Origin: a virus
DNA: 26,005 nt
Reading direction: 5' to 3' (one strand)
Virus record (IMG/VR): IMGVR_UViG_3300028823_000394
Coordinates: 1-26,005 of that record
Part shown: positions 5,125 to 20,494 of the stretch, in pieces
Layout: every line of letters starts with the position of its first letter
Numbering within the stretch: the first letter of the stretch is position 1
Position numbers and translations under genes: made by a program
Notes under the pieces: generated by a model
What the model saw: only the letters and a program-made list of their open reading frames with translations
What the model was told of the DNA's origin: nothing
Databases searched by the model: none

Positions 5125-5598
5125 ATGGCACATTTCCTTGCATACAAACATAAGGTACTGAAGTTTGGAGATGACTTTGTCGATGTTGTTATCAATGGTA
5201 GGCGATTCTACTTGTATACTGATACTTTAACTCCAATTGGTCTATACTATTACCTGCGGTGTAAAAATCCAGAAGTACGTGAATTCGCAATTACAATCTC
5301 AAGCTTTCTCGAATTCCTACCGTTCTTAACTCAAAATATGGTTGTGAAAGGATTGACAGAAAATAGAGCACAATTCGCTGTGATACTTCGACAAAACAAC
5401 CAGATGACATTTCCCAAGCCAATTCTTGATGAGCTTGGTCTTAGTCATCCGATATATGGAACTGTTGTTGTTTTCGAAATGAAGAAAATTATTCTGCGTG
5501 ACGGTCGAATAATCACAAACGACGAATTGTTAGCAAAACTTCAAGCAAATCAAACTGACCAGATTAATGGTCAAGAAAAGGAGGTGAAAAATACATGA
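5125..5598 (+). CDS. Protein with possible AbrB-like DNA-binding segment
   Basis: A 157-residue protein from ATG 5125 with no clear ribosome site, perhaps read from a short leader as the first gene of its unit. Residues about 92-128 (MTFPKPILDELGLSHPIYG followed by beta strands) resemble the swapped-hairpin AbrB/SpoVT fold (pattern i-t-i-P-k-x-i-r-x-x-L-g-l). The N-terminal 85 residues look beta-rich and are not recognised. It may regulate the replication block it heads. It overlaps the next gene as ATGA, and that gene's GGAGGTGA lies in its end. Confidence 0.45.
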   Translation: MAHFLAYKHKVLKFGDDFVDVVINGRRFYLYTDTLTPIGLYYYLRCKNPEVREFAITISSFLEFLPFLTQNMVVKGLTENRAQFAVILRQNNQMTFPKPILDELGLSHPIYGTVVVFEMKKIILRDGRIITNDELLAKLQANQTDQINGQEKEVKNT

Positions 5599-6770
5599 GC
5601 GAAAGTGAAAACAAAGTGGCGGAAACTCCGAAAGCAGCGGTAATCCCAGAACTTACTTTAGCAAAGTTTAGAGATTGGGCAGCAAAGACAGGTAAGCAAG
5701 TTGGAGATTTCATCAGTCAGTATAACAGCAGTATTGAGCTGTTGAAACGTCATCATCCAGTTATGGATTCAACAATGCTGAATAATCGAGCACGGGCAAT
5801 GGTATACGCGAATATGAAGTCGATAATTCTCAGTCCAGCAGTCCCATACGAATGGATATGTCTAGGCTTAGCAGAATCATTTGACCTTGCAGATTCAATG
5901 CATAAAACTTGTACTGAAATGTGGAAGGAAGATCCTGGCAGAGCAGCAAGTGAGGTCAAAGAAGGAAATGAAGTAGTTGAACCACGATACTGCAATACTG
6001 AAGGAGTTCATCTTGACTACAGATTCAGATATAAATCATCGGGTAAGGAAAACCCGAACTATGGCAAACCACTAGCTGCCCATAATTGGCTAAGAAATGT
6101 CTTCGGAGTCGGAAAACCCGTTGATAAACCAAATACTCCCGCAGCATCAATCCTACCAATGATTGGGATATTAAGTGATGCACGAGCAGAGCCAACAGTA
6201 GAAATTCCACTTGGCGTGTCATTGACGACTAGATTTAATCCGAAACAAGCAGAAGGATACTACCTCTTAAACGATTCAACGACAAGCAAGTTTGAGCTAA
6301 GGAAAGTCGAGTCAATGCCTGAGATTGGATCAATCATTACTGGAGTATGTCAAAAGTTCATTGTATCTTTAGGCGAACTAATGTCCTGGCATAACTTGCA
6401 CGAGAGCGACCCACAACGCGTTTGCATCGTTGAGGCAGATTTAGTAGATTTGCGTCTCGATGTATCCGATCGTAGCCACCAGATTATACTTGACGACGAG
6501 ACTTTGGGATTCCAGGATGACAAAGGTAACTTGCAATCGGGTGTAACAGTATGGATTCCAAAATTCCTAACGGAATATGTATACCCAATTGGCAATGGTA
6601 GTCGAATCTACGTAGTTGGACAGACACAAGTTGGACCTGGCTGGGTTGGTGGACAACAACGCGACGATATAAAGCAAGTCTTCATGAACGGGTACGGAGT
6701 TTGGCCTATCAAGGAGATGCTGGTGCCAAGAGAGGCAGATAGAACTGCATATCCAGAAAGTAGTTTTTAA
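5595..6770 (+). CDS. Putative OB-fold single-stranded DNA-binding protein (RPA/SSB-like)
   Basis: A 391-residue protein from ATG 5595 behind GGAGGTGA. The C-terminal 150 residues look like an OB fold: strand-like VCIVEADLVDLRLD, HQIILDDETLGFQD, VTVWIPKFL and GSRIYVVGQTQVGPGW, the kind of barrel found in RPA-type proteins. The N-terminal part is helical, with conserved-looking Cys/Trp positions. It lies directly before the Sak4/RecA-like ATPase, and SSB and Sak4 genes commonly neighbour each other in viruses. The assignment rests on fold impression and context; no zinc finger is seen. Confidence 0.5.
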   Translation: MSESENKVAETPKAAVIPELTLAKFRDWAAKTGKQVGDFISQYNSSIELLKRHHPVMDSTMLNNRARAMVYANMKSIILSPAVPYEWICLGLAESFDLADSMHKTCTEMWKEDPGRAASEVKEGNEVVEPRYCNTEGVHLDYRFRYKSSGKENPNYGKPLAAHNWLRNVFGVGKPVDKPNTPAASILPMIGILSDARAEPTVEIPLGVSLTTRFNPKQAEGYYLLNDSTTSKFELRKVESMPEIGSIITGVCQKFIVSLGELMSWHNLHESDPQRVCIVEADLVDLRLDVSDRSHQIILDDETLGFQDDKGNLQSGVTVWIPKFLTEYVYPIGNGSRIYVVGQTQVGPGWVGGQQRDDIKQVFMNGYGVWPIKEMLVPREADRTAYPESSF

Positions 6771-7967: not shown

Positions 7968-8191
7968 AACATTGGAACTATACGGGAACAATCATCGGTA
8001 GACTATCAATGGAAGAGATTCAACAGATACTCGTGAGTTGTACACTGAACAGTGATTTGCGTCAGAAAATTGTAAGGTTTCTACTAGAAGCTCAGAAAGT
8101 TGAACTTGAACAAGAGGAAAAACTTGGACTAGAGATTTCATTGCCTTTGACTGATGAAGAAAGGAAGGAGTTAACGCGAGTATGCAAGTAG
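7955..8191 (+). CDS. Hypothetical protein, 78 aa
   Basis: From ATG 7955, overlapping the previous gene by 13 bases; AGGAG lies upstream. The product is acidic and mainly helical (SMEEIQQILVSCTLNSDLRQ, FLLEAQKVELEQEEKL). No motif is recognised. It lies between the Nmad1-like and DpdA-like genes and overlaps the latter by 10 bases, so it is probably produced with them. Confidence 0.55.
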   Translation: MSEVKHWNYTGTIIGRLSMEEIQQILVSCTLNSDLRQKIVRFLLEAQKVELEQEEKLGLEISLPLTDEERKELTRVCK

Positions 8192-8967
8192 CACACATTG
8201 CTCCAATTGCAGGTTTACCACTAATCAAAGGTAAACCTGTCCAATTCGTGATTGCGCCGTATGTGGAAAAGTATCCGGCGTATGCAAGCTTTTATAAGAA
8301 TGAGAAAGGCTACAAGATTATTGATAACGGTGCCTGGGAATTGCGTAAACCAATGTCCCCAACAAAGTATCTTAAGATTGCAGTTGATGTCGGTGCTGAC
8401 GAGATTATACTTCCGGACTATGAGTTCAAACCGGTTCATACATTGGCACGAACACGTGAATTCATCAATCTATTGCGTACCGAACAACACGAACATTCGT
8501 TCAATTATCAATTGGTATTGCATGGACGCGATTACTTCGATATGGTTGACAGAGCATCATGGTTGATATGTGAAATACGGAAAATGAAGTTCGAAATTAA
8601 TCGACTAGGTATTCCGTTGTATAACAAGGATTGGACAGGACGAATCATGGCAGTCTATTTGCTCCGGCAGAAACAAACACTATTGCAGAATCTTACATTT
8701 CATCTTCTCGGACTTCACGATCCTATCGAACTGATGTGCTATGGAAACGAAGTACATAGTGTTGATTGCCGATATGCATTCAAGTACGGAATAACATTGA
8801 CTGATTGGTATATTCAGAATCCGTTACCGATTATACATCGATTTGATATGCGTGTTGAATGGTCACAAACAAATACACAAAAAATCAAGTTGCATATGTA
8901 TATGATTGAAAAACTTGCGAGACGTGGTGAAAAAGACGTCACATTGTTACAATCTGATCACCGCTGA
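8182..8967 (+). CDS. dpdA: TGT-fold DNA guanine transglycosylase (DpdA-like)
   Basis: A 261-residue protein from ATG 8182. It shows the order of motifs of tRNA-guanine transglycosylases: YKIIDNGAWE (D48, where TGT has DSGGFQ), GADEIILPDYEF (D79), YQLVLHGRD, then FHLLGLHDPIEL and VHSVDCRYAF, with D195 at the place of the nucleophilic Asp. It is much shorter than tRNA TGTs and lacks the zinc-binding C terminus, as in viral DpdA-type enzymes that exchange guanine for a 7-deazaguanine base in DNA. It lies immediately before PolB (62-base overlap), and the virus also encodes all preQ0 synthesis enzymes. A tRNA target is not formally excluded. Confidence 0.75.
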   Translation: MQVAHIAPIAGLPLIKGKPVQFVIAPYVEKYPAYASFYKNEKGYKIIDNGAWELRKPMSPTKYLKIAVDVGADEIILPDYEFKPVHTLARTREFINLLRTEQHEHSFNYQLVLHGRDYFDMVDRASWLICEIRKMKFEINRLGIPLYNKDWTGRIMAVYLLRQKQTLLQNLTFHLLGLHDPIELMCYGNEVHSVDCRYAFKYGITLTDWYIQNPLPIIHRFDMRVEWSQTNTQKIKLHMYMIEKLARRGEKDVTLLQSDHR

Positions 8968-11647
8968 ATACATACCGGATAACGATATTCCGGTACTGTA
9001 CCTAATTACTCGACGCGATGATGGCAAAAAGGAAATACTACCAATAGTCTGTAAAGATTTATCTCTCCGCCCACGTTTCTTTGCTCCAACTGTACCAGAC
9101 GCAATAAGGAATTCAAATCGCGTGTTAGATATACTATCAGAACCGAGAAAAAGCATATACGGTCCATCGCTTTACAAGATTTATACGAAACTTCCTGCTG
9201 ATGTAGGTAAACTACGTGAAATGGTCAAAAATCATCATGAAGCAGACATTCAATTTCCATATGTAATACTAGTACAAGAGGACATAAAGATTGGCTTTGA
9301 GAGAACCGATGCAGGCAAGATTAAACCAACAGAACCCTTAAATCTCCCACTTTATTTATTCTATATCGATATCGAGGTGGCTTCGCCACCAGAAGAGTTT
9401 CCAGATTATCGGAGACCAAGATTTCCAATAGTTTTGATTACAACATGGAATAGTAAGACTAATTCCATTATCGCATTTTTCTATCATCCGAATTTTCCAC
9501 CAGGCTCAATCGATTCAAACGGAGCCTGTAGTGATGAGTATTTCCTACTGTTCAAACCGCTTATTGAGAAAGCAATGTTGCGGGATGAATATACAGGTAT
9601 GAAACCTGATTTTGTAGAAATCCGATTTTTCAACAATGAGAAGTTCATGCTAAGACGCTTTGCAGAACATCTCGTACATATCGTGCAACCAGATGAATTG
9701 ATTGCATATAACTGGCCATTTGACGGGAACTATCTAATAGCCCGTATGAATGCATTACGTGTTGGAGCCGACAAACTTTCACCACTTGGTTCCGCATATT
9801 CACGAAGTGCCGAAGAAGTAGTTATTAAAGGTTACGATTGCTTCGATATACTTCGAGGATTTAAAGAACTCTGGACGATGGCGTTCGGAGAATTGAGTTC
9901 ATGGAAATTCACTTCAGTGATCGAGCATCCAAAGGTTTTTGGAAAACCGAAAACTGAGTTTTGGCTTGGACATCAGATTGAAGAGGCATGGAACAAAGAT
10001 CCGGCAAGTTTACTTTGGTACGGTATTGATGATGCTAAGGATAGCGCAGCGTTGATTGACAAGTTCGATGTGATAAACTTTTATTCCGGAATACGCGAAG
10101 AAGCTGGCTGTAGTTTATCAGACGCCCTGTCATATTTCAAGGCACTCGATATTTGCTGTTTACGTGACAAAGAGTTCGTCTTACCGTCTGGACATTATGT
10201 AGAGAAGTTTGGGAAGACTACAGGTCCAATAGTATTTGAACCAGTACCTGGAATACATGAAGATGTTGGTCAAGTAGATGCAAAATCTCTATACGTGAAC
10301 ATGATTCGTCTGAACAATATTGGTATCGAGACAGAGGATCCGAACGGTGAACATGCAGTCGAGATATTCTTATTCGGAAGGAAAGAAACTATTCGATTCA
10401 AACGTTCACCTGAAGGCATACTAAGCCGTATTGTGAATAAGTTCGAAAAGCGTCGTGATGCTGTCAGAGACAAAATGGTTGGTCTGGATAAGCACAGTAT
10501 TGAGTATCGTGTACTATATCAAAGACAAAACGGTATTAAGTTTCTAACCAGTGCATTACCTGGATTACTTGGAAACGAAGCCTTCCGACTGTTCAATCAA
10601 AGAATACATGCTGCTGTAATGTTCAGTGGTAGAGAATGTACGGAGTTCATGTCCGAAATTGCTGAAGATGAAGGTTTCAAAACTCTTTACGGTGATACCG
10701 ATTCAGTATTCTTGAAAAGATTCCGTACAATTACTGAAGAACTATCAGTCAAGGATCATCTCGAACAAACTGCTGAAACAATAAACACTGCTTTGTACGG
10801 AAAATATGGTTCCAAGAAATTCTTTGTCAAGGTTGAGGATATCTGGCAGAGTATTTTCTTTGGAAGAAAGAAGTCAGGAGAAGCTCGCAAGAAATGTTAT
10901 GCTGGTATAACGCAAGATGGAGAACTCAAGATTGTCGGACTAGCAGCAATTCGATCGGACAGTGCACCGATTACCGTTGAAGTACTACTACAAGTATATA
11001 ATCTCGTACTTAAGGAAAAGGATGTTAATGGGGCCCTAAAAGTTATCTATTCGACAAAGGAAAAATTTGAACAACTGTCTCCTCAAGAAATTGCTGTTCC
11101 GAAGGGATTATCAATGGATCCAGATGAATATGGAGTGAAGGATGAAAACAAGAACTTCGTGCTTATTAATGGTAGAAAGAAAGGAGTTCCAGCGCATGCA
11201 CGAGGAGCAGTTTACGCACGTAAGCATTTACATGTTCCTTTGGGCTCAGGCACGAAGGTAAGATATATTTGGATAAGGCGAGTCAAAGATCCGACACCTT
11301 TTGGAGAACCAAGAAAATATCCCAAAACTAACGTATTATCATTTGAACATGAATCACAAGTACCATGGGAAATATTTGACATTGATTACTCAAGAATGTT
11401 TGGTTTGACAGTGATGGGTAAGGTCGAAGACATTTTTGAGGCACTTGGAATTACAAGAGCAGAGATATTGGCAAAACAACGCACTGCAAAACTCACAAGT
11501 TTCGAAGAATTAACCTTACCTGAACGAACATGTATAGGTTGTGGAGTAGTGTTCAAGCGGAAGAACCATATTCCGTATTGTGAAAAGTGTATCCAAGTAC
11601 GTGTGAAGCAAATGGGGAGAAGAGGCCCAAGACGTGAGGATAATTAA
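8906..11647 (+). CDS. polB: Family B DNA polymerase with 3'-5' exonuclease and C-terminal zinc finger
   Basis: About 913 residues from TTG 8906; GTG 8924 or 8927 are possible starts, and none has a clear ribosome site. Exonuclease motifs: YIDIEVA (D155, E157), YNWPFDGNYL (D273), YGIDDAKD (Y372, D376). Polymerase motifs: A, VDAKSLYVNM (D458); B, GIKFLTSALPGLLG (K545); C, LYGDTDSV (D597, D599). In motif B the usual N-S-x-Y-G reads S-A-L-P-G. A KKCYAG thumb motif follows. The C terminus adds a four-Cys finger (C876, C879, C892, C895) in a basic tail. This is the viral replicative polymerase, adjoining the DpdA-like gene. Confidence 0.93.
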   Translation: MKNLRDVVKKTSHCYNLITAEYIPDNDIPVLYLITRRDDGKKEILPIVCKDLSLRPRFFAPTVPDAIRNSNRVLDILSEPRKSIYGPSLYKIYTKLPADVGKLREMVKNHHEADIQFPYVILVQEDIKIGFERTDAGKIKPTEPLNLPLYLFYIDIEVASPPEEFPDYRRPRFPIVLITTWNSKTNSIIAFFYHPNFPPGSIDSNGACSDEYFLLFKPLIEKAMLRDEYTGMKPDFVEIRFFNNEKFMLRRFAEHLVHIVQPDELIAYNWPFDGNYLIARMNALRVGADKLSPLGSAYSRSAEEVVIKGYDCFDILRGFKELWTMAFGELSSWKFTSVIEHPKVFGKPKTEFWLGHQIEEAWNKDPASLLWYGIDDAKDSAALIDKFDVINFYSGIREEAGCSLSDALSYFKALDICCLRDKEFVLPSGHYVEKFGKTTGPIVFEPVPGIHEDVGQVDAKSLYVNMIRLNNIGIETEDPNGEHAVEIFLFGRKETIRFKRSPEGILSRIVNKFEKRRDAVRDKMVGLDKHSIEYRVLYQRQNGIKFLTSALPGLLGNEAFRLFNQRIHAAVMFSGRECTEFMSEIAEDEGFKTLYGDTDSVFLKRFRTITEELSVKDHLEQTAETINTALYGKYGSKKFFVKVEDIWQSIFFGRKKSGEARKKCYAGITQDGELKIVGLAAIRSDSAPITVEVLLQVYNLVLKEKDVNGALKVIYSTKEKFEQLSPQEIAVPKGLSMDPDEYGVKDENKNFVLINGRKKGVPAHARGAVYARKHLHVPLGSGTKVRYIWIRRVKDPTPFGEPRKYPKTNVLSFEHESQVPWEIFDIDYSRMFGLTVMGKVEDIFEALGITRAEILAKQRTAKLTSFEELTLPERTCIGCGVVFKRKNHIPYCEKCIQVRVKQMGRRGPRREDN

Positions 11648-11821
11648 ATGACTTGTGAGAAATGTTGCCTTTGGCCTTGCGACCGAACTAACAGATGCCC
11701 AGAGGGAACCTATTGGGTACGGAATAAACATGACAAACTTATCCGGATGATAGAACTGTCTAAACCGACACAAGTGATTATTGGTCGAGCTGTTATCAAG
11801 GCACTTGAAATGGAGGTCTAA
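11648..11821 (+). CDS. Cys-rich small protein, 57 aa
   Basis: ATG 11648 follows the PolB stop with no gap. The first 18 residues hold five Cys (CEKCCLWPCDRTNRCP), then a helical tail (LIRMIELSKPTQVIIGRAVI). The cluster resembles those of other small proteins here but without exact CxxCPx4C spacing. Metal binding is likely; function unknown. It carries the ribosome site of the next gene (GGAGGT). Confidence 0.5.
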   Translation: MTCEKCCLWPCDRTNRCPEGTYWVRNKHDKLIRMIELSKPTQVIIGRAVIKALEMEV

Positions 11822-11824
11822 TAC

Positions 11825-11959
11825 ATGTCATACGTATATCTTGGTGATTTAGTCGAAGAGCACGAAGAGATGGAAAGAAAGCTTAAACGTAGGAAAAGAC
11901 GAAAGAACAACTTGAACAGACGTAAATTAATGGGAAACCAGTCTCGATCGAGACGCTGA
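11825..11959 (+). CDS. Small, very basic protein, 44 aa
   Basis: ATG 11825 lies eight bases after GGAGGT. The product has an acidic first half (GDLVEEHEEMERK) and then an Arg/Lys-rich stretch (LKRRKRRKNNLNRRKLM), which suggests nucleic acid binding or charge neutralisation. A 14-base perfect palindrome forms its last codons. Too short for family assignment. Confidence 0.45.
   Translation: MSYVYLGDLVEEHEEMERKLKRRKRRKNNLNRRKLMGNQSRSRR
11941..11954. promoter_or_regulatory. 14-bp perfect palindrome
   Basis: GTCTCGATCGAGAC is its own reverse complement, and CAG/CTG flanks extend it imperfectly. It lies at the end of the small basic gene, about 100 bases before the membrane protein gene, a position suitable for a dimeric repressor or an RNA stem. 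Coding constraint could also explain part of it. Confidence 0.35.
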
Positions 11960-12023
11960 AAGTCTGTTGATTAGTAAGGCTCGTGAGAGGTGTCACTGGT
12001 GATCCATTACAGAATACATTACA

Positions 12024-12043
12024 CTCAGTAAAATATTGCTGAG
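12024..12043 (+). promoter_or_regulatory. Hairpin directly before a ribosome site
   Basis: CTCAGTAA pairs with TTGCTGAG (seven Watson-Crick pairs and one G-U) around a four-base loop. The stem ends one base before the GGAGGTGA (12045-12052) of the membrane protein at 12057. The 97-base gap 11960-12056 holds no gene and no obvious tRNA. The stem could modulate access to the ribosome site. Confidence 0.35.
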
Positions 12044-12056
12044 AGGAGGTGAAAGT

Positions 12057-12530
12057 ATGAGAAAAGCGAAAACAGTTCTTGTCTGCCTAACGGTGATTCT
12101 GATTCTTGCTGGAGTTGGGTTCGCAACCGCCCAAAATGCGACTCAAAATGCGACCGACACAAATGGTACAATCGAAGAAAATGGATTGAATCCTGAAACA
12201 CAGACGATTCTTTATGTTGCTGGTGCTTGGCTATTGTACTTTATCTTGGGTCTAACCGCAGCGATCGTGAAAGGTGAAGAAACATTCGATCCAAAGAAGT
12301 TCCTTACGAGCGTCCTCTATGCGCTATTCGTAGTAATCATAGCTATTGGAATGGGTATTAAACCAGTAGCTGTTGAAGCCCAATACTCAAATCTTGTCAC
12401 AGAGGTTGTAGCAGTAATTATGAACAGCGGTGCAGGAGTCTTTATGATATACGCACTTAACAGAATCGTACTAATACTGACAGGATTGGCAGACAGACTA
12501 AAAGTTGAACCAGCAAAAAAGACCACATAA
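12057..12530 (+). CDS. Membrane protein with signal peptide and glycosylation sites
   Basis: ATG 12057 follows GGAGGTGA (an upstream in-frame TTG 12036 precedes the ribosome site and is rejected). The 157-residue protein has a signal peptide (RKAKTVLV, hydrophobic core, cleavage likely after ATAQ near residue 26) and a Thr/Asn-rich spacer with three N-x-T sequons. It then has about three hydrophobic segments (near 40-62, 75-98, 108-140). It is probably placed in the cell membrane with its N terminus outside. Role unknown: a virion membrane, egress or superinfection-exclusion protein are options. It is followed by a T7 terminator and preceded by a hairpin, so it may be expressed apart from PolB. 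Confidence 0.7.
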   Translation: MRKAKTVLVCLTVILILAGVGFATAQNATQNATDTNGTIEENGLNPETQTILYVAGAWLLYFILGLTAAIVKGEETFDPKKFLTSVLYALFVVIIAIGMGIKPVAVEAQYSNLVTEVVAVIMNSGAGVFMIYALNRIVLILTGLADRLKVEPAKKTT

Positions 12531-12550
12531 CCAAGATAAGTCTGGATGAG

Positions 12551-12568
12551 AAACTCCCTTTTTTTCCC
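12551..12568 (+). terminator. T-rich terminator
   Basis: AAACTCCC followed by T7 and CCC lies 20 bases after the stop of the membrane protein gene. It closely matches the tract after position 4986. Confidence 0.6.
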
Positions 12569-12597
12569 ACATTTCATATTCAGTTTGGAGTTAGAAC

Positions 12598-12804
12598 ATG
12601 AAGAATTTAATCAAACTTGAACAGGAAAAGATACTTTCAAGGACTCGTTGTGTAATGAGTGGAAACAACTGTAAGAAGTGTAAGAAGAAAAACTGTGATA
12701 TACGCAAACAGCTTCTAACCTGTATCGAACAACGAGTTCTTGCACAAACCGAGTTGAAGAAAGCACTTCAGCTCGATATCTCGATCTCTGAAGGAAGGAA
12801 ATGA
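12598..12804 (+). CDS. Cys-rich helical protein, 68 aa
   Basis: ATG 12598 follows TTTGGAG. Cysteines fall at residues 18, 25, 28, 33 and 42 (CVMSGNNCKKCKKKNC, then LLTC) in a strongly Lys-rich setting, followed by a helix. This is probably a metal-binding, perhaps nucleic-acid-binding, protein. It is the first gene after a terminator and ends one base before the GTG of the thymidylate synthase-like gene. Confidence 0.55.
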   Translation: MKNLIKLEQEKILSRTRCVMSGNNCKKCKKKNCDIRKQLLTCIEQRVLAQTELKKALQLDISISEGRK

Positions 12805-12805
12805 T

Positions 12806-13531
12806 GTGCCAGATGAAATGAAAACAGAATTCATACGAGCCTTCGATCTACCCGATGTATGGTTCCGAGCGGTTAAAGCATGTATGGATAAAGGATACAA
12901 TAGACCTGTGTTTCGAGGATCCCGTAAAGAACAGCGTAGAATGGAACTCGACCATGTAGTACTCGAGATAGCCAAACCATCCATGAGACCGTTAGTGCCA
13001 GATGTGCCGGAAGGTGTACCTCCACCAGTCGATATGCGATACGTGAATCGATATGTTGGCTATATCATTACTGCAGACAAGACAGCAGATGAACAATATA
13101 CGTACGGTGAACGAGTAGCAGGTGAAATCAATGTAGAAGTAAGTCCAGAGATGGAACACATAGATAAAATCGAAGGTGAACGCATTTCGAGTTTCAGTTT
13201 CAATCAACTTGAAAAGATTTCGGAGTTTCTTGGCGAAACACCAGAAACCAACCGATGTATAATTGAAGTCGGAAAGGCTGAAGACTTGCTACTGAAACAC
13301 CCTCCATGTCTTAGACTTATGCATTTCAAGGTTCGTTACGGACAGTTACATCTATATGTTTACTTTCGAAGCTGGGATGCTTGGGCAGGATTACCTGGTA
13401 ATCTTGCTGCCTTTCAATTGCTTAAGGAGTATCTTGCTCGACAGTTCAAAGTAGACGATGGTAAGATATTCGCGAGCTCGTTAGGTCTACACGTTTACTC
13501 TGGACAATGGAAATACGCGAAACTGTTATAA
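12806..13531 (+). CDS. thyA: Thymidylate synthase-family enzyme (ThyA-like)
   Basis: A 241-residue protein from GTG 12806 (AAGGAAGG upstream). Family features: YTYGERV near residue 98; the nucleophilic Cys in HPPCLRLMHF (C168); the dUMP-binding YFRSWDAWAGLPGN (R188, S189, D191, N199); and C-terminal GLHVYSG matching the H-x-Y motif. N199 corresponds to the Asn that selects dUMP, whereas dCMP hydroxymethylases carry Asp. The short length and divergent N terminus resemble archaeal ThyA. It converts dUMP to dTMP with a methylene-pterin cofactor, or possibly to a hydroxymethyl product. It supplies DNA synthesis. Confidence 0.8.
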   Translation: MPDEMKTEFIRAFDLPDVWFRAVKACMDKGYNRPVFRGSRKEQRRMELDHVVLEIAKPSMRPLVPDVPEGVPPPVDMRYVNRYVGYIITADKTADEQYTYGERVAGEINVEVSPEMEHIDKIEGERISSFSFNQLEKISEFLGETPETNRCIIEVGKAEDLLLKHPPCLRLMHFKVRYGQLHLYVYFRSWDAWAGLPGNLAAFQLLKEYLARQFKVDDGKIFASSLGLHVYSGQWKYAKLL

Positions 13532-13565
13532 AGTTTACAGCGGAAAACTCAATGAGAGTATAAAC

Positions 13566-14360
13566 TTGATTCCACGAAAAAGCGATTTCGAACAGTTCAA
13601 TTGGTGTCCTAAGTCATTCGAAATTCTAGTCATTCGTGGAGTCGAACCATCAAGATTACCTTATGTCATGCAAGTCGGAGATAGCTTTCATCATGCACAT
13701 GCAGAATTCTACGGTAAGTTGAACTTTAAGCATCTTGATCAACTTGGTAACAATGAAATTGCAATACGGAAGTATTTCCGAGGATTGTTGCTTTGGACGA
13801 AAGATGAGAGAATACGATTACTCTGTGATAACTTTGCAAATATGGAAACTAAACGTTGGATTGCTGCAGTCAAGGAAAAAGGGATTCAAGCTCCGAAGTA
13901 CTTTAAGCCGGTGTTATCTGAAGTCGCACTACTCAGTTTGAAACTTAGACGACGCGGACATCCTGATCGAGTTGACTTAACCTTCGACGATGAGTATGCA
14001 GTTGGCGAAGTCAAAACTGGACATGTACCGAAAGATTTAAGTTCGTATCGACGTGAGTGTGTCTGGTATCTTGAGATACTTGAGGACGTATGTCTAATCG
14101 GAATGGATGGGACATACGATAATCTCGAACCGTTCCGATTGCCGAAACCTCCAAAATATCTATTCGTTTACTTTCCACTCGACAATACCGTAATCTGGGA
14201 AGTACCCAATCCATGGACAAGAAAGGCATTGAAGAGACGCGAGAAGAAATTCTGGCATCATGTACGCAACGATATCTATCCACGTCTTGCAAATCCCTTT
14301 TGTCGGGATTGTTTAGTCGTTGATACTTGTGTTGATGAATGGGGAGGAGAATACACATGA
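13566..14360 (+). CDS. Cas4/RecB-like nuclease with four-Cys cluster
   Basis: A 264-residue protein from TTG 13566 (GAGAG upstream). An N-terminal FNWCPKSF holds C14, and GDSFHHAHAEF matches the RecB/Cas4 His motif. GHPDRVDLTF and AVGEVKTG supply the catalytic Asp (134 or 137), E148 and K150. The C terminus has CRDCLVVDTC (C246, C249, C255). One Cys at the front and three at the back is the layout that holds the 4Fe-4S cluster in Cas4, AddB and Dna2. Likely a DNA end-processing exonuclease in recombination or packaging. No cas1/cas2 or CRISPR array is present, so a CRISPR role is not indicated. Confidence 0.8.
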   Translation: MIPRKSDFEQFNWCPKSFEILVIRGVEPSRLPYVMQVGDSFHHAHAEFYGKLNFKHLDQLGNNEIAIRKYFRGLLLWTKDERIRLLCDNFANMETKRWIAAVKEKGIQAPKYFKPVLSEVALLSLKLRRRGHPDRVDLTFDDEYAVGEVKTGHVPKDLSSYRRECVWYLEILEDVCLIGMDGTYDNLEPFRLPKPPKYLFVYFPLDNTVIWEVPNPWTRKALKRREKKFWHHVRNDIYPRLANPFCRDCLVVDTCVDEWGGEYT

Positions 14361-14593
14361 ATATTTGGAAAGACGATACTTATGAGAAAAAAATCCGTGA
14401 ATGTATTGAGCAACAAGCAACGAAAAAGGATTTATGGTTACTAGGACGAATTGGTGCAAAACCTGGTGACGTCAAATCCAAAGAAGACCTTAAACGTTTT
14501 CACTTCTACTGTGATGGCTGTAAACAGAAAACACCAGCAATTGAAGCAGTATTGCACCACAATATAATGAAGTCAAAGTCTCCGACGGAATGA
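14357..14593 (+). CDS. Small protein with one CxxC knuckle, 78 aa
   Basis: ATG 14357 overlaps the nuclease stop as ATGA and follows GGGGAGGAGA. The product is helical and basic, with FHFYCDGCKQKTPAIEAV near residues 53-70: a single CxxC. A zinc ribbon needs a second CxxC, and that is found in the next tiny ORF (VCGDC). The two may be halves of one ancestral protein or partners. Function unknown. Confidence 0.6.
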   Translation: MNIWKDDTYEKKIRECIEQQATKKDLWLLGRIGAKPGDVKSKEDLKRFHFYCDGCKQKTPAIEAVLHHNIMKSKSPTE

Positions 14594-14679
14594 TAGGATT
14601 GATAACTGAGAAAGTAGCGTTGGTGTGTGGAGATTGCGAGTCGAAATTAAAACCGATGGAGAAAACCAAACTTGATTGA
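14590..14679 (+). CDS. 29-aa microprotein with CxxC, possible second half of a split zinc ribbon
   Basis: ATG 14590 overlaps the previous stop as ATGA, and its end overlaps the TTG of the ERCC4 nuclease. It encodes 29 residues with EKVALVCGDCESKLKPMEK. With the upstream CDGC it would complete a ribbon with about 35 residues between knuckles. It could be a coupled subunit or the remnant of a frameshift. Confidence 0.4.
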   Translation: MIGLITEKVALVCGDCESKLKPMEKTKLD

Positions 14680-15334
14680 ACTCGATACTCGTGAACCAAA
14701 GTTCCATAGAGTACTAAAGGCACTAAGAGTACCGTATAAGAGAAAAACACTACCTGCAGGAGATATCAAGATTGGACCGATTGTAATAGAAAGGAAGGAA
14801 ATCTCGGACTTTGTGCTTAGTATGCAAGAGGAAGAAAGGCTTTGGAAACAATGCACAAGACTTGCACGGGAAAAATTTCCATGCGTTGCAATCACCGGAG
14901 ATGTAATTGAGTTATCAGGACAGTATCAAAAACGACACATGTACTTGAACATAAAGGCAATTAGGCATGCTATCGCAAGTATCTATATCCGTTATGCAAT
15001 ACCGGTAATATGGCTACCAAATGACGTCGAACTCGTTAATGTTTTGATAGCGATGGAGAGTAAGTATTCTGAGGGAAAACTTGGAATAACACACTTAATC
15101 CGACACACTGTAAAAGGACGACCGCGACAAATCACTGCCTTATGTGTGCTATTTGGACTTTCGGAAGCACAGGCAACCAGTTTGTTTCGATATGCAGGTG
15201 GGTCAATAAAGACTATATTCGAGTGGATAGATAATAAACCATATAAGATTCAAGATATTCATGGTATTGGAGAATCAACGGTTAGACGTATGCAGACTGT
15301 TTGGAAGGGGATGCAGAGGAAAGTAAAGGTATGA
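14672..15334 (+). CDS. ERCC4-domain (XPF/Hef/Mus81-type) structure-specific endonuclease
   Basis: A 220-residue protein from TTG 14672. It opens with IELDTREP and has the full nuclease signature GDIKIGPIVIERKEISD (D31, E40-R41-K42, D46). Helix-hairpin-helix-like repeats lie at about 155-215 (LCVLFGLSEAQATSLF, IHGIGESTVRRM). This is the compact archaeal XPF/Hef C-terminal architecture without a helicase. The family cuts branched DNA such as flaps and fork structures. It sits between a Cas4-like nuclease and an AAA+ ATPase, so it belongs to the replication-repair set. Confidence 0.88.
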   Translation: MIELDTREPKFHRVLKALRVPYKRKTLPAGDIKIGPIVIERKEISDFVLSMQEEERLWKQCTRLAREKFPCVAITGDVIELSGQYQKRHMYLNIKAIRHAIASIYIRYAIPVIWLPNDVELVNVLIAMESKYSEGKLGITHLIRHTVKGRPRQITALCVLFGLSEAQATSLFRYAGGSIKTIFEWIDNKPYKIQDIHGIGESTVRRMQTVWKGMQRKVKV

Positions 15335-15510
15335 AGATAATCAACGATTTTCAAACAAATGAAGGCATTGAGATGTTTGTCGGTATACTGATAAAGCATA
15401 AGAAGCATAGATTATGGATTTTCAACAAACCGGTTCATGGTTCTTATCTCGCGTTCGGACCCGATCCAAATAATCCAAAAAAGCAAAGATGGAAAGACTT
15501 GAGAACATGA
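15331..15510 (+). CDS. Hypothetical protein, 59 aa
   Basis: ATG 15331 overlaps the nuclease stop as ATGA. The longer frame from 15301 lies inside that gene. The product looks like a small beta protein (EMFVGILIKHKKHRLWIFNK, GSYLAFGPDPNNP) with many Lys and aromatic residues. No family is recognised. It ends overlapping the AAA+ gene. Confidence 0.5.
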   Translation: MKIINDFQTNEGIEMFVGILIKHKKHRLWIFNKPVHGSYLAFGPDPNNPKKQRWKDLRT

Positions 15511-16640
15511 AGGAACTCAATCCATACGATTTGACATTGGAAATACTCCATAGTAGAAGGATAGCCTTCGTTGACCTTTACCTACCTTACTACATAGCGT
15601 CGATTGGTACCCACATATTCAATATTGTGAATTATCAGAAACGCATCTTTTGGATGCATCAAATGGTTCCCAATTTTCGTTTACATATCATGATGGTTGC
15701 ACCACCAGGTTGGATCAAAAGTTTCACACTGAAGCAATTACTTGATGGTCCATATTCACTGTTCGCAGGAACCAAACTCGATCCCCATTTCGAAGCAACC
15801 ATGACTGAAGCAGGATATGTTGGAACGTTAAGACTTGGAAAAGAAGGAGAAAAAGTACAAGTTATCGGAGCAGCAGAAGAACACAAGTATAGTATAATCG
15901 GTTGTGAGGAGTTTTCAGCTCTCGCAGCAATGATGTTAACGAGTCATAGCAAATCGCTTGATGTTGCAATGCTTACAGGTTTAGAATCCGGATGGGTGCG
16001 AAAACGTCTTGCTGCAGGCAAAATCGAGTATCAGACATTTCATACGCTTTGGGCTGGAACCCAACCGATGAGATTTGATCCAACAGCTGGGATGACAAGA
16101 CGGTTTATATTTCTGGTCAAAACTCCAACTCAACGGGATAAGAGAATAATCAAGGATGCGAGAATTAAAGGCAGATACCAACGCTTTAGTGGAGATCCTG
16201 TTAAGCACTTACGTAAACTAACCGATCAGTTGTTTACGAAAATCGGTAACCTTGACGCCATCCATTTCGAAAACAGATTAGATAAGTTTATCCGAAGTTT
16301 CCAGGTCCCTCATTACGAGGATCAACTTTACGAGCGTCTAGCGCTTGGATACACAATAATGAGTAAACCATTTGAGAAAGAGTTATATGTTACACTTGAC
16401 GAAAACTTAAAGAACTTGATTACACATGCACATCAGTGGAGAAATAAACTTAAACGTGGATTAATGTCTAGTCAGGTGATAACAATTCTCCGTGACCATG
16501 GTGGGTCAATGGAGGTAAACAAACTTCGAATGGAATTGACGAATATTTCGTTAAGCTGGATGGAATCAACGAGATTAATCAACATGTTGATTCGATCCGG
16601 TGATTGTAAGCGAGATGGAATAAAGGTGATATTGAAATGA
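15507..16640 (+). CDS. MCM-like AAA+ ATPase, putative replicative helicase
   Basis: Using ATG 15507 (ATGA overlap; ATG 15489 is in frame) gives 377 residues. The AAA+ core shows VAPPGWIKS at the Walker A position (65-72) with Ala and Ile where two glycines are usual, and K71-S72 kept. YSIIGCEEF follows as Walker B (E134-E135), then TLWAGTQPM (sensor 1) and MTRRFIF (arginine finger, R198-R199). TEAGYVGTL resembles the MCM helix-2 insert. The C-terminal 60 residues look like a winged helix. It most resembles reduced MCM-type helicases of archaeal mobile elements. A helicase loader or another AAA+ is possible. Confidence 0.6.
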   Translation: MKELNPYDLTLEILHSRRIAFVDLYLPYYIASIGTHIFNIVNYQKRIFWMHQMVPNFRLHIMMVAPPGWIKSFTLKQLLDGPYSLFAGTKLDPHFEATMTEAGYVGTLRLGKEGEKVQVIGAAEEHKYSIIGCEEFSALAAMMLTSHSKSLDVAMLTGLESGWVRKRLAAGKIEYQTFHTLWAGTQPMRFDPTAGMTRRFIFLVKTPTQRDKRIIKDARIKGRYQRFSGDPVKHLRKLTDQLFTKIGNLDAIHFENRLDKFIRSFQVPHYEDQLYERLALGYTIMSKPFEKELYVTLDENLKNLITHAHQWRNKLKRGLMSSQVITILRDHGGSMEVNKLRMELTNISLSWMESTRLINMLIRSGDCKRDGIKVILK

Positions 16641-16855
16641 AGTTGAGAATTGTGATTGAGATTACAGATAATGAAGTAAAATTGAAATGTGGGAAATACG
16701 AGTTTGAGTTACCAATGAAAAAGTTAAGCACAGCTACTCGAGAACGATTGAAATACAGAGGGTACACTCCAGATACAATTGAACTCAAACATACTATCGA
16801 TGATATTCTAGCGATGCTGTACCGTAATTTAGGTATAGGAGCAGATAAACTGTAA
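16637..16855 (+). CDS. Hypothetical protein, 72 aa
   Basis: ATG 16637 overlaps the ATPase stop as ATGA. It starts with beta strands (LRIVIEITDNEVKLKCGKYE) followed by helices (STATRERLKYRG, IDDILAMLYRNLG). No motif is recognised. It is separated from queC by 12 bases holding a perfect GGAGGTGA. Confidence 0.5.
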   Translation: MKLRIVIEITDNEVKLKCGKYEFELPMKKLSTATRERLKYRGYTPDTIELKHTIDDILAMLYRNLGIGADKL

Positions 16856-16867
16856 GGAGGTGAAAGA

Positions 16868-17569
16868 TTGAAGGTTATAGCTGTTTTATCGGGTGGTATA
16901 GACTCAATATGCTATGCCGTAATTTGGCAGAACAGAGAAAACGTTGATACAATTCATCCGTTGATATTCGACTATGGGCAAAAAGCGTTAAGAGAAACAA
17001 TGGTAGCAGAAACGATGTCGACAAAACTGGAGTTCAAGAAGCCCAAAACAGTTGACATCATATTTATGAAAAAGCTATGGCCTGGAACACAACTCACTGA
17101 TGATTCAGTTGAAGTCAAAAATACTTATTCTCCGGATGTGGTTGTTCCAATCCGCAATGCAGTTTTTCTTGCAATAGCAACAGCATATGCGTATAGTATT
17201 GGTGCCAAAGTCGTAATCTACGGTGCACATATGGGTGATATCGTTCCAAACCCAATTACTGGTGAACCACTCTATCCCGACTGTAGTCCGGAATTCCAAA
17301 TGGTTCTTGAAACCGCCCTTAACATCGGACATTTCAGACACACAAGACAAATCGAGATACATTCACCAGCAAGAGATCAATTATCAAAGGTCGATATAGT
17401 CAAAAAGGGATTTGATTTGATTGGTGATACAATCTTCGAGACCTGGAGTTGCTATCAAAACTATAGACTTCAATGTGGTGTATGTGAGTCATGCCAAAAC
17501 CGTAGAAAAACATTCGAACTAGCTGGAATAGAAGACAAAACAAAATACTTAAAGGAGGTGATTGATTGA
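16868..17569 (+). CDS. queC: QueC, 7-cyano-7-deazaguanine (preQ0) synthase
   Basis: A 233-residue protein from TTG 16868 behind GGAGGTGA. It has the PP-loop SGGIDS (8-13), VPIRNAVFLAIA, the substrate motif YPDCSPEF and a four-Cys zinc site (C195, C203, C206, C209), all family hallmarks at normal length. QueC uses ATP and ammonia to turn CDG into preQ0, the last step of the route started by FolE, QueD and QueE downstream. It ends in TTGA, overlapping the start of a secreted protein gene. No QueF-like gene follows, so preQ0 is the expected end product in this window. Confidence 0.93.
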   Translation: MKVIAVLSGGIDSICYAVIWQNRENVDTIHPLIFDYGQKALRETMVAETMSTKLEFKKPKTVDIIFMKKLWPGTQLTDDSVEVKNTYSPDVVVPIRNAVFLAIATAYAYSIGAKVVIYGAHMGDIVPNPITGEPLYPDCSPEFQMVLETALNIGHFRHTRQIEIHSPARDQLSKVDIVKKGFDLIGDTIFETWSCYQNYRLQCGVCESCQNRRKTFELAGIEDKTKYLKEVID

Positions 17570-18042
17570 CTAGGTTAGAACAAGTACTTTCCGTTGCCTT
17601 ACTCGCAACGATTATTGTTGCCGCAGCAGTGATATATCTGATCTCGATACGTACAATTCCATCAACAGGAAAAATCAAAACAATCGGTGTTGAAGCATAC
17701 AAGGATCCCAACTGCACAGAGATTCTTGAGATGGTTGATTGGGGAATAATGAGTCCAGGCGACATTGCAGGATTCACGTGTTATTGCAAGAATATAAGAA
17801 ATGTGAACTTCACGATGAATATCAATGACAGTAATTGGAATCCAGCGAATATCTCGCAGTACTTTATCCTTGATTGGAACTACACAGGACGAATTATGCA
17901 TCCAGAAGATGTCGAGTTAGTACAAGTAACTCTTTACTTATCAGTGTCAATCCTTGATGACTATGATTCCACAGATATTCCTGATACATTCAGTTTCGAT
18001 ATCAATATTATCGCAACGGAGGTGAGTGCTAATGGCAGTTAA
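17566..18042 (+). CDS. Membrane-anchored secreted beta-sandwich protein
   Basis: A 158-residue protein from TTG 17566 with GGAGGTGA in the end of queC. One N-terminal hydrophobic segment (about 7-28) anchors or exports it. The rest is beta-rich with several N-glycosylation sequons (NCT, NFT, NIS, NYT). The order GVEAYKDPNCTEIL, VDWGIMSPGD, NWNPANIS, ILDWNY and LYLSVSI resembles a family of small exported proteins I recall from uncultured archaea such as Bathyarchaeia; that memory is unverified. Its place between queC and queD is odd: it may act at the cell surface, unrelated to base synthesis. Confidence 0.65.
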   Translation: MTRLEQVLSVALLATIIVAAAVIYLISIRTIPSTGKIKTIGVEAYKDPNCTEILEMVDWGIMSPGDIAGFTCYCKNIRNVNFTMNINDSNWNPANISQYFILDWNYTGRIMHPEDVELVQVTLYLSVSILDDYDSTDIPDTFSFDINIIATEVSANGS

Positions 18043-18244
18043 AAGTTGGTCAGGAATTCTTTGTCCTAAGTGCAAGTCAAGACTGAACAAGATAGCGAAT
18101 ATTCAATTGTATCCGAAAGGTGACACAACTGCAATTGAAGGCTACACATACTGCAAAACTTGTAGGGAGATTTACAAGGTTCCGAAAAAGAAACCGGAGG
18201 TGAAGAAAACTGAGAACTCTAGTACTAAAGCAACACAAATTTAG
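18032..18244 (+). CDS. Zinc-ribbon protein, 70 aa
   Basis: ATG 18032 follows GGAGGTGA; a longer in-frame start at 18026 is too close to the ribosome site. It has ILCPKCKS and YCKTCREIY, two zinc knuckles about 27 residues apart, with a Lys/Thr-rich tail. It overlaps queD by 35 bases, and its tail codons contain queD's ribosome site. A transcription-factor-like or accessory ribbon is plausible; function unknown. Confidence 0.6.
   Translation: MAVKSWSGILCPKCKSRLNKIANIQLYPKGDTTAIEGYTYCKTCREIYKVPKKKPEVKKTENSSTKATQI
18197..18212 (+). promoter_or_regulatory. Ribosome site that fixes a CTG start for queD
   Basis: GGAGGTGA at 18197-18204 is followed by five bases and CTG 18210-18212. The layout is nearly identical to that before TTG 6785. 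In the queD frame a TGA at 18201 closes the upstream side, and no ATG, GTG or TTG occurs before the active-site codons. Confidence 0.7.
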
Positions 18245-18608
18245 TGCTGCACATTATCTTGAACATCATGAGAAATGTGGTGTACTACACGGACATACGT
18301 ACTTTGTGAGAAACCTTGAAGTAGATTGCGAAGGGTTCGTTGATTTCGGTGCAATTACTGGTCTGATAGACGCATTCGATCATGTGCTACTTGTACCAAA
18401 GAAGCACTTGTCATATTGGCAAAAGATCGAAGACATCCTAGAACCAATAGGTGTGCGTGTACCAGTCATTGTATTGAACGATTCTAGTACAGTTGAAGAT
18501 ATTTCCGTAATGCTCGGAAATATGCTTGAAGCAGTAACGCATGTCTCTGCTGTTCGATTTACACTATACGAAGGTCCGAAGAATGGTGTTAAATACCCAC
18601 CGGAGTAA
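18210..18608 (+). CDS. queD: QueD, 6-carboxy-tetrahydropterin synthase, with CTG start
   Basis: A 132-residue protein when read from CTG 18210. It holds all family motifs: FSAAHYLEHH (zinc H15), EKCGVLHGHTY (C23 nucleophile, zinc H27 and H29), VDFG (D45), FDHVLL (D57, H58), SSTVED and LYEG. Starting at the first GTG (18306) would remove the zinc ligands and the catalytic Cys, so a CTG start is much more likely. QueD converts dihydroneopterin triphosphate from FolE to 6-carboxy-tetrahydropterin, the substrate of QueE. Normal length for the family. Confidence 0.9.
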   Translation: MRTLVLKQHKFSAAHYLEHHEKCGVLHGHTYFVRNLEVDCEGFVDFGAITGLIDAFDHVLLVPKKHLSYWQKIEDILEPIGVRVPVIVLNDSSTVEDISVMLGNMLEAVTHVSAVRFTLYEGPKNGVKYPPE

Positions 18609-18686
18609 GCAGTCCAGCAGAACCGATTTTTGGACGGACTCCCTCCTCCTAATTTCGGCACTGGATTTGCCTCTTTAGGTGATCAA

Positions 18687-18818
18687 ATGAGTACGGGTGA
18701 AGGAAAACCGAGAGATAAAGATCATACTGATGCGAGTTACTCTATCTGTCCAAGATGCGGATATGAAGCTCCAAACTATCAGAACAGATGCCCACGCTGT
18801 GGATACTATATAGCATAA
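18687..18818 (+). CDS. Zinc-ribbon microprotein, 43 aa
   Basis: ATG 18687 lies five bases after AGGTGAT; a TTG at 18630 gives a longer version without a ribosome site. The C-terminal half is a compact ribbon of two CPRCGY knuckles separated by ten residues. This is the size of rubredoxin-like or ribosomal zinc ribbons. The 78-base gap before it holds no other gene. Function unknown. Confidence 0.55.
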   Translation: MSTGEGKPRDKDHTDASYSICPRCGYEAPNYQNRCPRCGYYIA

Positions 18819-18829
18819 GACAGAACCCA

Positions 18830-18846
18830 TTTTCCTATTTTTTCTC
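18830..18846 (+). terminator. T-rich terminator
   Basis: A pyrimidine tract with TTTT and T6 follows the zinc-ribbon stop at 18818. It is similar to the tracts at 4989 and 12551. Confidence 0.45.
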
Positions 18847-18851
18847 TCATA

Positions 18852-18874
18852 GAGATAGCCGATACGACTATCTC
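18852..18874 (+). promoter_or_regulatory. Perfect 7-bp stem-loop before a ribosome site
   Basis: GAGATAG (18852-18858) and CTATCTC (18868-18874) form a perfect inverted repeat around a nine-base loop. It ends directly before GGGAGGA, the ribosome site of the gene at 18888. It could be an operator, an RNA stem affecting translation, or part of the terminator. Confidence 0.45.
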
Positions 18875-18887
18875 GGGAGGACACACA

Positions 18888-19178
18888 ATGGAAAATATTG
18901 AAAAGATAGAAGCAATCCCAGCAATCAAAGTAGTTGATGATTTCTTCGAGGCGATAATACAGATATCCGATGAGGAGATCGAAGAAGCAGTAGATAGGAT
19001 TTCCAGACTCGATGCAACATATGGAATACTTTGGGGTCTGAATAGATTTACAGGCAATGATGACAAGAACATAGAACTTTACTTGCTCAAGAGAGAAGCC
19101 TTGTACTTCATGGCCAAAATACGCGAAGACAAAAGATTCAAAATATTCCGTTTAGCGGTAGCAATGAGGAAACAATAA
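18888..19178 (+). CDS. Hypothetical helical protein, 96 aa
   Basis: ATG 18888 follows GGGAGGA. The product is acidic in its first half (ISDEEIEEAVDRISRLDA) and basic at its end (FRLAVAMRKQ), mostly helical. No family is recognised. It leads the queE-folE segment after a terminator and stem-loop, so it may share their transcript. Confidence 0.55.
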   Translation: MENIEKIEAIPAIKVVDDFFEAIIQISDEEIEEAVDRISRLDATYGILWGLNRFTGNDDKNIELYLLKREALYFMAKIREDKRFKIFRLAVAMRKQ

Positions 19179-19184
19179 TGGACA

Positions 19185-19301
19185 TTGTACCACCTGATAA
19201 AAGAATTTATCAATGTGGCAATATCCGCAATTTATATCTTAGCGATCGGAGACAAATGTCCAAAATGTGGAGGTGAACTTGAAAATGTTGAAAGTCTATG
19301 A
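19185..19301 (+). CDS. 38-aa microprotein: hydrophobic helix plus CPKCGGE
   Basis: After the stop at 19176-19178 the same frame continues openly. TTG 19185, with GAGGA about 13 bases upstream, gives 38 residues: a hydrophobic helix (FINVAISAIYILAIG) followed by KCPKCGGELENV. It overlaps the queE start by 17 bases and carries its ribosome site. A competing ATG at 19179 gives a less convincing 31-residue frame. Weak but plausible. Confidence 0.35.
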   Translation: MYHLIKEFINVAISAIYILAIGDKCPKCGGELENVESL

Positions 19302-19920
19302 GATTTTTCCAAGTATTCAAGGTGAAGGATTACATATCGGAACTCCAGCAGTATTCATACGCCTAGTGGGATGCAATCTTAACTGTATCTGGTGCGATAC
19401 GAAGTACGCGAGAACTGGAGGCAAAGAGATGACCGAAGAAGGAATACTGGAGTGTCTTGAAGAGTTGGATGAAGGTTTACGGTTTGTAGTCATTACTGGA
19501 GGAGAACCATTAATACAGGATATAGAGAAACTGGTATATATGCTTGCTAGCCATGCATATACTGTACATATCGAAACAAACGGTACAATCAACATGAGTA
19601 ACCATCTCTTCGTCGATCATTTCATTGTTTCTCCGAAACTGATGAGTGCAAAGATAAGCCGTGATATTGCGATAGTTCCAGGAGTACTTAGACGATACAA
19701 GGAATCTAAAAAGGCAGAATTCAAGTTCGTAATCGCGGATTACAAGGATTTCGAAGAAATGTACAGACTTGTCGACGAGTATAAACTCCTACCAGTTGTG
19801 CTTCAACCTGTACATAACGATCCAGTTCTAGCGAGAGAAATCATCAATTGGGTTGCTAAACATCGAGCATACGCAGCAAGAATCTTGCCCCAACTACATA
19901 AGACATGGAAATTGAAATGA
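19285..19920 (+). CDS. queE: QueE, 7-carboxy-7-deazaguanine synthase (radical SAM)
   Basis: ATG 19285 sits eight bases after GGAGGTGA; the upstream GTG at 19267 precedes that site and is rejected. The 211-residue product opens YEIFPSIQGEGLHIG, has the radical-SAM cluster motif CNLNCIWC (C30, C34, C37; CX3CX2C) and TGGEPL (71-76), all typical of QueE. It rearranges 6-carboxy-tetrahydropterin to CDG with SAM. It lies 13 bases before folE and works between QueD and QueC. Confidence 0.93.
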   Translation: MLKVYEIFPSIQGEGLHIGTPAVFIRLVGCNLNCIWCDTKYARTGGKEMTEEGILECLEELDEGLRFVVITGGEPLIQDIEKLVYMLASHAYTVHIETNGTINMSNHLFVDHFIVSPKLMSAKISRDIAIVPGVLRRYKESKKAEFKFVIADYKDFEEMYRLVDEYKLLPVVLQPVHNDPVLAREIINWVAKHRAYAARILPQLHKTWKLK

Positions 19921-19933
19921 TGGAGGTGACAAA

Positions 19934-20494
19934 ATGAAGAAATATATACCGTTACATCAGGATGAAATGAAGCTGAAGGATATTCTGGCTAATATCGGAA
20001 TCGATTTAACCGCTGAAGGATTCATACGAACTCCGGAAAGATTCTTAAACGTGATGTCGAGATTCACAACTGGATATTCGATGGAAGTAAAGCTTGAGAG
20101 AACCTATACCGAAAACTCGAGTATGAATATTGAACCGAATATTCCATTTGTCTCACTCTGCGAACATCACTTGATGCCTTTCTTTGGACACGTCAGCATT
20201 GCGTATATTCCAAACGCGAAAAAGGTTACAGGACTTTCGAAACTCGATCAACTAGTTGAGAAGTACTCATTGCGCTTCCAAATTCAGGAACGTATGGGAA
20301 ACCAAATCGCGGATGAGATCCAAAAGGTGGTTAAACCACTCGGTACAGCGGTAATTATCAAAGCAGTGCATACGTGTAAGCTTGTTGAAGGTTGTCAGGC
20401 GACTAGATACATTACATCTGCAATACGCGGAGTATTCATTGATGAACCACATGCAAAAACTGAACTCATGATGTTACTGAATTCCGAAAAATAG
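19934..20494 (+). CDS. folE: FolE, GTP cyclohydrolase I
   Basis: A 186-residue protein from ATG 19934 behind TGGAGGTGA. Zinc and catalytic motifs are LCEHHLMPFFGH (C76, H78, H79) and HTCKLVEG (C148), with the TPERFLNV opening region of type I enzymes and full family length. It converts GTP to dihydroneopterin triphosphate, feeding QueD. As the last + strand gene of the block, it completes the four-enzyme preQ0 set. The commonly conserved R-G after the last zinc Cys is E-G here, a small variation. Confidence 0.93.
   Translation: MKKYIPLHQDEMKLKDILANIGIDLTAEGFIRTPERFLNVMSRFTTGYSMEVKLERTYTENSSMNIEPNIPFVSLCEHHLMPFFGHVSIAYIPNAKKVTGLSKLDQLVEKYSLRFQIQERMGNQIADEIQKVVKPLGTAVIIKAVHTCKLVEGCQATRYITSAIRGVFIDEPHAKTELMMLLNSEK

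Follow-up and report, generated by a model that had tools for sequence, protein, structure and literature searches.

The window, i.e. the whole stretch of DNA that was analysed, comprises an entire IMG/VR record of 26,005 bases, which is linear and probably represents a fragment of the genome of an uncultured tailed virus. Tail-type genes on the − strand come after a long replication and modification region on the + strand, and no tRNA genes were detected in the window. Positions of the genes discussed are given in Table 1.

Table 1. Genes of the window referred to in the text, with the matches and motifs that identify them.
Feature	Position	Strand	Evidence
391-aa protein	5595..6770		without family match
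Predicted DpdA-type guanine transglycosylase, short form without TGT zinc motif, 261 aa	8182..8967	+	fold, catalytic residues
Family B DNA polymerase (PolB), adjoins the DpdA gene on its 3' side, frames overlap	8906..11647	+	PF00136 4e-22, PHROG 262 1e-78
Thymidylate synthase, nearest methanogen type	12806..13531		TIGR03283 4e-25 (under its cut-off); GLPxN and PPC motifs kept
383-aa protein, possibly a replicative helicase	15489..16640		P-loop-like stretch
QueC, 7-cyano-7-deazaguanine synthase	16868..17569	+	PF06508 3e-43; SGGIDS, four-Cys cluster
QueD, 6-carboxytetrahydropterin synthase, probable CTG start	18210..18608	+	TIGR03367 4e-10; Cys, HGH motif
QueE	19267..19920	+	PHROG 2076 1e-44; TIGR03963 1e-35; Cx3Cx2C
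FolE, GTP cyclohydrolase I	19934..20494	+	PF01227 2e-49; CEHH, HTC

QueC, QueD, QueE and FolE each match their own family and retain the key motifs (Table 1), which were checked by alignment with phage 9g, BSP7, HVTV-1 and related viruses. The identities of QueC, QueE and FolE are unambiguous, based on profile matches in Pfam, PHROGs and NCBIfam. The QueD frame contains no ATG, GTG or TTG start that would retain the N-terminal half of the active site; the CTG at 18210 fits as a start, with an in-frame stop upstream at 18201, and QueD is recognisable when the frame is read from this CTG. The de novo preQ0 pathway, which the initial annotation had described with its key residues, is present in the window as FolE, QueD, QueE and QueC, active-site motifs included. 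The FolE, QueD and QueE of phage 9g functionally substitute for the E. coli enzymes (PMC6884629).

A short transglycosylase family encoded next to DNA polymerases

The gene located directly before PolB, whose frame overlaps that of the polymerase, encodes a 261-aa protein. It has no match in Pfam, PHROGs or NCBIfam, and as a single query against viral contigs it gave no hits; a four-sequence alignment was required to reach its relatives. These short viral proteins form a large family, the profile of which reached 57 viral contigs, and tblastn detected related proteins in Bacillus phage BSP7 and Weizmannia phage Youna2. Residues D48, N49, E53, D79, H174, L176, G177 and D195 are invariant in an alignment of 38 sequences.

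The initial annotation had predicted a TGT barrel for this protein and had proposed a structure check, in which another fold would speak against the reading. An AlphaFold2 model, built with 37 relatives, displays a mean pLDDT of 90.4. When compared with the PDB by Foldseek, 50 of the 50 matches listed were tRNA-guanine transglycosylases (TGT match at 5e-8), and the VIA matches listed were likewise all TGT (Z 18.0, rmsd 3.5 over 238 residues), so that model, Foldseek and VIA all came out in favour of the predicted barrel. Among PDB sequences, the sole significant match of the family profile was the bacterial DpdA 7ui4, a DNA-guanine transglycosylase (E 4.4e-5), and hhalign aligned the family with archaeal TGTs at an E-value of 2.4e-5 and a probability of 75%. 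The latter alignment places D48 at the aspartate of TDSG, D79 at that of the PLD motif and D195 at that of FDSA (TGT D90, D125 and D246). These are the catalytic aspartates of TGT, and the one paired with D195 is at the nucleophile position. The retention of D48, D79 and D195, as initially annotated, extends to all 38 sequences, and the relation of the protein to DpdA and TGT is well beyond chance.

The hallmarks of the archaeal TGTs are a CxCxxC...H zinc motif and C-terminal tRNA-binding domains, and those aligned here have the CxCxxC motif and a length of about 480-500 aa; the 261-aa protein lacks this motif. Its short length and missing zinc site, together with a long branch of unsure position in the family tree, are points against a function as DNA-guanine transglycosylase. 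Since the fold is common to tRNA enzymes, which fill the Foldseek matches listed, the protein could instead act on tRNA and raise host archaeosine, with the viral DNA left unmodified. We consider this very unlikely: the difference in length and the absent zinc motif speak against a tRNA enzyme, the genes adjoin DNA polymerases throughout the family, and the sole PDB sequence to match significantly is that of an enzyme acting on DNA. Fold, catalytic aspartates and relation to DpdA support the prediction that the 261-aa protein is a DpdA-type guanine transglycosylase, which would insert its base into DNA.

The relatives in BSP7 and Youna2 sit directly before a DNA polymerase, with QueC, QueD, QueE and FolE encoded a few genes away. 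At least one preQ0 gene was found in 47 of the 57 related contigs, and all four in 18 of these. This co-occurrence is above background, since QueE was detected in only 305 of 50,697 phage records, a rough comparison as the collections and thresholds differ. At 26 of the 43 loci examined, the end of the family gene lies at most about 0.5 kb from the estimated DNA polymerase start, and the adjoining polymerases are of several kinds. Among the family members are gp056 of Campylobacter phage CP220 (profile match at 1e-49) and, from a Flavobacterium phage, a protein that carries the annotation DpdA; part of the family presumably corresponds to DpdA3 of Cui 2023.

This tight coupling to polymerases would also suit a route in which PolB incorporates a modified dGTP made from preQ0, the transglycosylase-like protein having a different role, and such a route has been considered in the literature for phages without a known DpdA (PMC6884629). 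It appears extremely unlikely here, given that all three TGT/DpdA catalytic positions are retained and that DpdA is essential to DNA modification in phage CAjan (PMC6884629). The family of predicted short transglycosylases is large and mostly unannotated, and in many viruses its genes immediately precede that of a DNA polymerase; this adjacency may provide a simple handle to predict modified viral genomes from sequence.

Related lineages of archaeal viruses

The virus had been annotated as archaeal, and its assignment to the tailed viruses of archaea is well supported because the phage records that PolB is nearest to are haloarchaeal tailed viruses (all 25 of the matches listed). The window also carries a Hef-type nuclease, the methanogen-type thymidylate synthase and a weak tape-measure match, in keeping with an archaeal tailed virus, and related archaeal lineages were found. 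When PolB was compared with cellular genomes, the three best matches were from Methanocalculaceae. One of the top cellular matches (L079) was considered as a provirus and rejected: its polymerase is the methanogen's own, as it is flanked by chromosomal genes. When the 391-aa protein was used to look for a host, no genome was found, and the 383-aa protein had 0 matches among 232 genomes from the same class as a Methanocalculaceae MAG. PolB alone as a query gave no match in the viral contigs.

The replication plan of the window is common to two other lineages, L050/L074 and L076, which share with it the 391-aa protein, an AAA_24 ATPase, PolB, a RecB-like nuclease, QueE, FolE and QueC. The 391-aa protein lies beside the AAA_24 ATPase in every related archaeal virus found; the 383-aa protein shows 39% identity to its counterpart in L074 and has no match among phage records. 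A short DpdA is located one ORF before PolB in L050, and common ancestry of this protein and the DpdA of the window gave an AU p of 0.129. In L076, which also has PCNA and primase-like genes, the slot held by the short DpdA in the window is filled by a Pfam-recognised TGT with zinc-type cysteines (8724-9878, PF01702 1e-6), which overlaps the PolB start. No QueD was found in the L050 record (70,958 bases) or the L074 record, an L050 ORF tried as QueD being rejected as it does not align as such. Since FolE, QueE, QueC and DpdA are present and QueD was not found, the L050 and L074 viruses may use the QueD of their host.

A broader idea, improbable as a whole, is that a group of archaeal tailed viruses reserves a place for DpdA, at the PolB start or close to it, that is filled by different transglycosylase lineages (one short form in the window, a second in L050 and the zinc-type TGT in L076), and that the window virus may swap guanine wholesale for preQ0 near replication. 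To our knowledge, wholesale guanine replacement has been reported for dADG and not for dPreQ0.

Predicted base exchange and comparison with known systems

The sequence and the model show which genes are present, the fold and catalytic residues of the 261-aa protein, and the conserved gene context. It is highly probable, in our judgement, that the virus encodes both the synthesis of preQ0 and its DpdA-mediated exchange into DNA, and in this way evades restriction. FolE, QueD, QueE and QueC would convert GTP into preQ0; the DpdA-type transglycosylase would then excise guanine from the replicated viral DNA via a covalent intermediate on an aspartate, by homology D195, and insert preQ0 in its place post-replicatively, and the 7-deazaguanine would shield the DNA from host restriction enzymes. 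We infer the base exchange, its DNA substrate, the identity of the base and the evasion of restriction from characterised relatives.

The initial annotation took the absence of QueF-like and amidotransferase genes to predict preQ0 itself as the final base. Neither gene was found in the 26-kb window, and the related records agree: the L050 record (71 kb) yielded neither QueF nor glutamine amidotransferase, and L074 and L076 lacked a recognisable amidotransferase. QueF-family matches seen in related records were rejected, as they fall within FolE and the window FolE gives an identical cross-match. The prediction is nevertheless weaker than initially put, because the record is a linear fragment, in which absence proves little, and because CP220, whose DpdA belongs to this family, carries dADG and not dPreQ0; every dG of its DNA is replaced by dADG according to a passage of PMC8306585 that cites Crippen 2019. 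With the same system, a viral gene beyond the fragment or a host enzyme could thus lead to dADG, dG+ or dPreQ1 as the final base. The archaeal virus HVTV-1 has mainly dPreQ1, and ANME-1 head-tailed viruses were reported with QueCDEF (PMC9894754). Against this stand the absences listed above, from records that may be fragments too, and we hold a final base other than preQ0 to be a tentative but serious alternative.

A preQ0/G+ pathway was described for all druskaviruses and a DpdA homologue for HRTV-29 (PMC8651126), so that, with the ANME-1 viruses, the 7-deazaguanine theme is already known in archaeal viruses. New here is that a lineage distinct from the haloarchaeal isolates has the complete preQ0 set together with a short DpdA. 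A virus-encoded 7-deazaguanine DNA pathway with its own predicted short DpdA is thereby extended to archaeal tailed viruses beyond these isolates, and a known anti-restriction trick, 7-deazaguanine in viral DNA, would operate in a lineage far from those studied.

The 261-aa protein shares its fold and catalytic aspartates with the bacterial DpdA 7ui4 and the tRNA-guanine transglycosylases, which are, however, much longer. The DpdA of phage 9g, the only characterised phage DpdA compared, is not recognised by the family profile (E 0.53). The short DpdAs of CP220, BSP7, Youna2, Flavobacterium phage immuto and Aeromonas phage Ahp1 resemble that of the window in their equal length, invariant residues and profile matches (E 1e-26 to 1e-60), and most have preQ0 genes nearby, as in the window; their hosts, in contrast, are bacteria, and the window branch is long, with 22-29% identity at most.

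The haloarchaeal druskavirus HVTV-1 is, like the window virus, an archaeal tailed virus with QueC, QueD, QueE, FolE, PolB, MazG and Hef-like nuclease genes, but differs by a QueF-like gene, dPreQ1 and the lack of a short DpdA, only its DUF6610 protein reaching a marginal score with the short-DpdA profile (0.018). This protein (gene 69, L005:33806-34963) adjoins FolE and keeps an HLLG...SID stretch; DUF6610 weakly matches four members of the short DpdA family, and gene 69 gave no BLASTP alignment with the L076 transglycosylase. Judged by its sequence, it may be the missing transglycosylase, possibly DpdA4. HVTV-1 was reported to have dPreQ1 but no DpdA.

The closest parallels in gene content are Escherichia phage CAjan and Mycobacterium phage Rosebush (group 2 of Hutinet 2019), which encode, like the window, FolE, QueD, QueE, QueC and a DpdA but no amidotransferase, and which are, unlike the window virus, bacterial viruses. 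Both have dPreQ0 in place of about 30% of G (Hutinet 2019), and synthesis of preQ0 followed by guanine exchange in DNA, as the simplest reading of the window, would match these measured cases.
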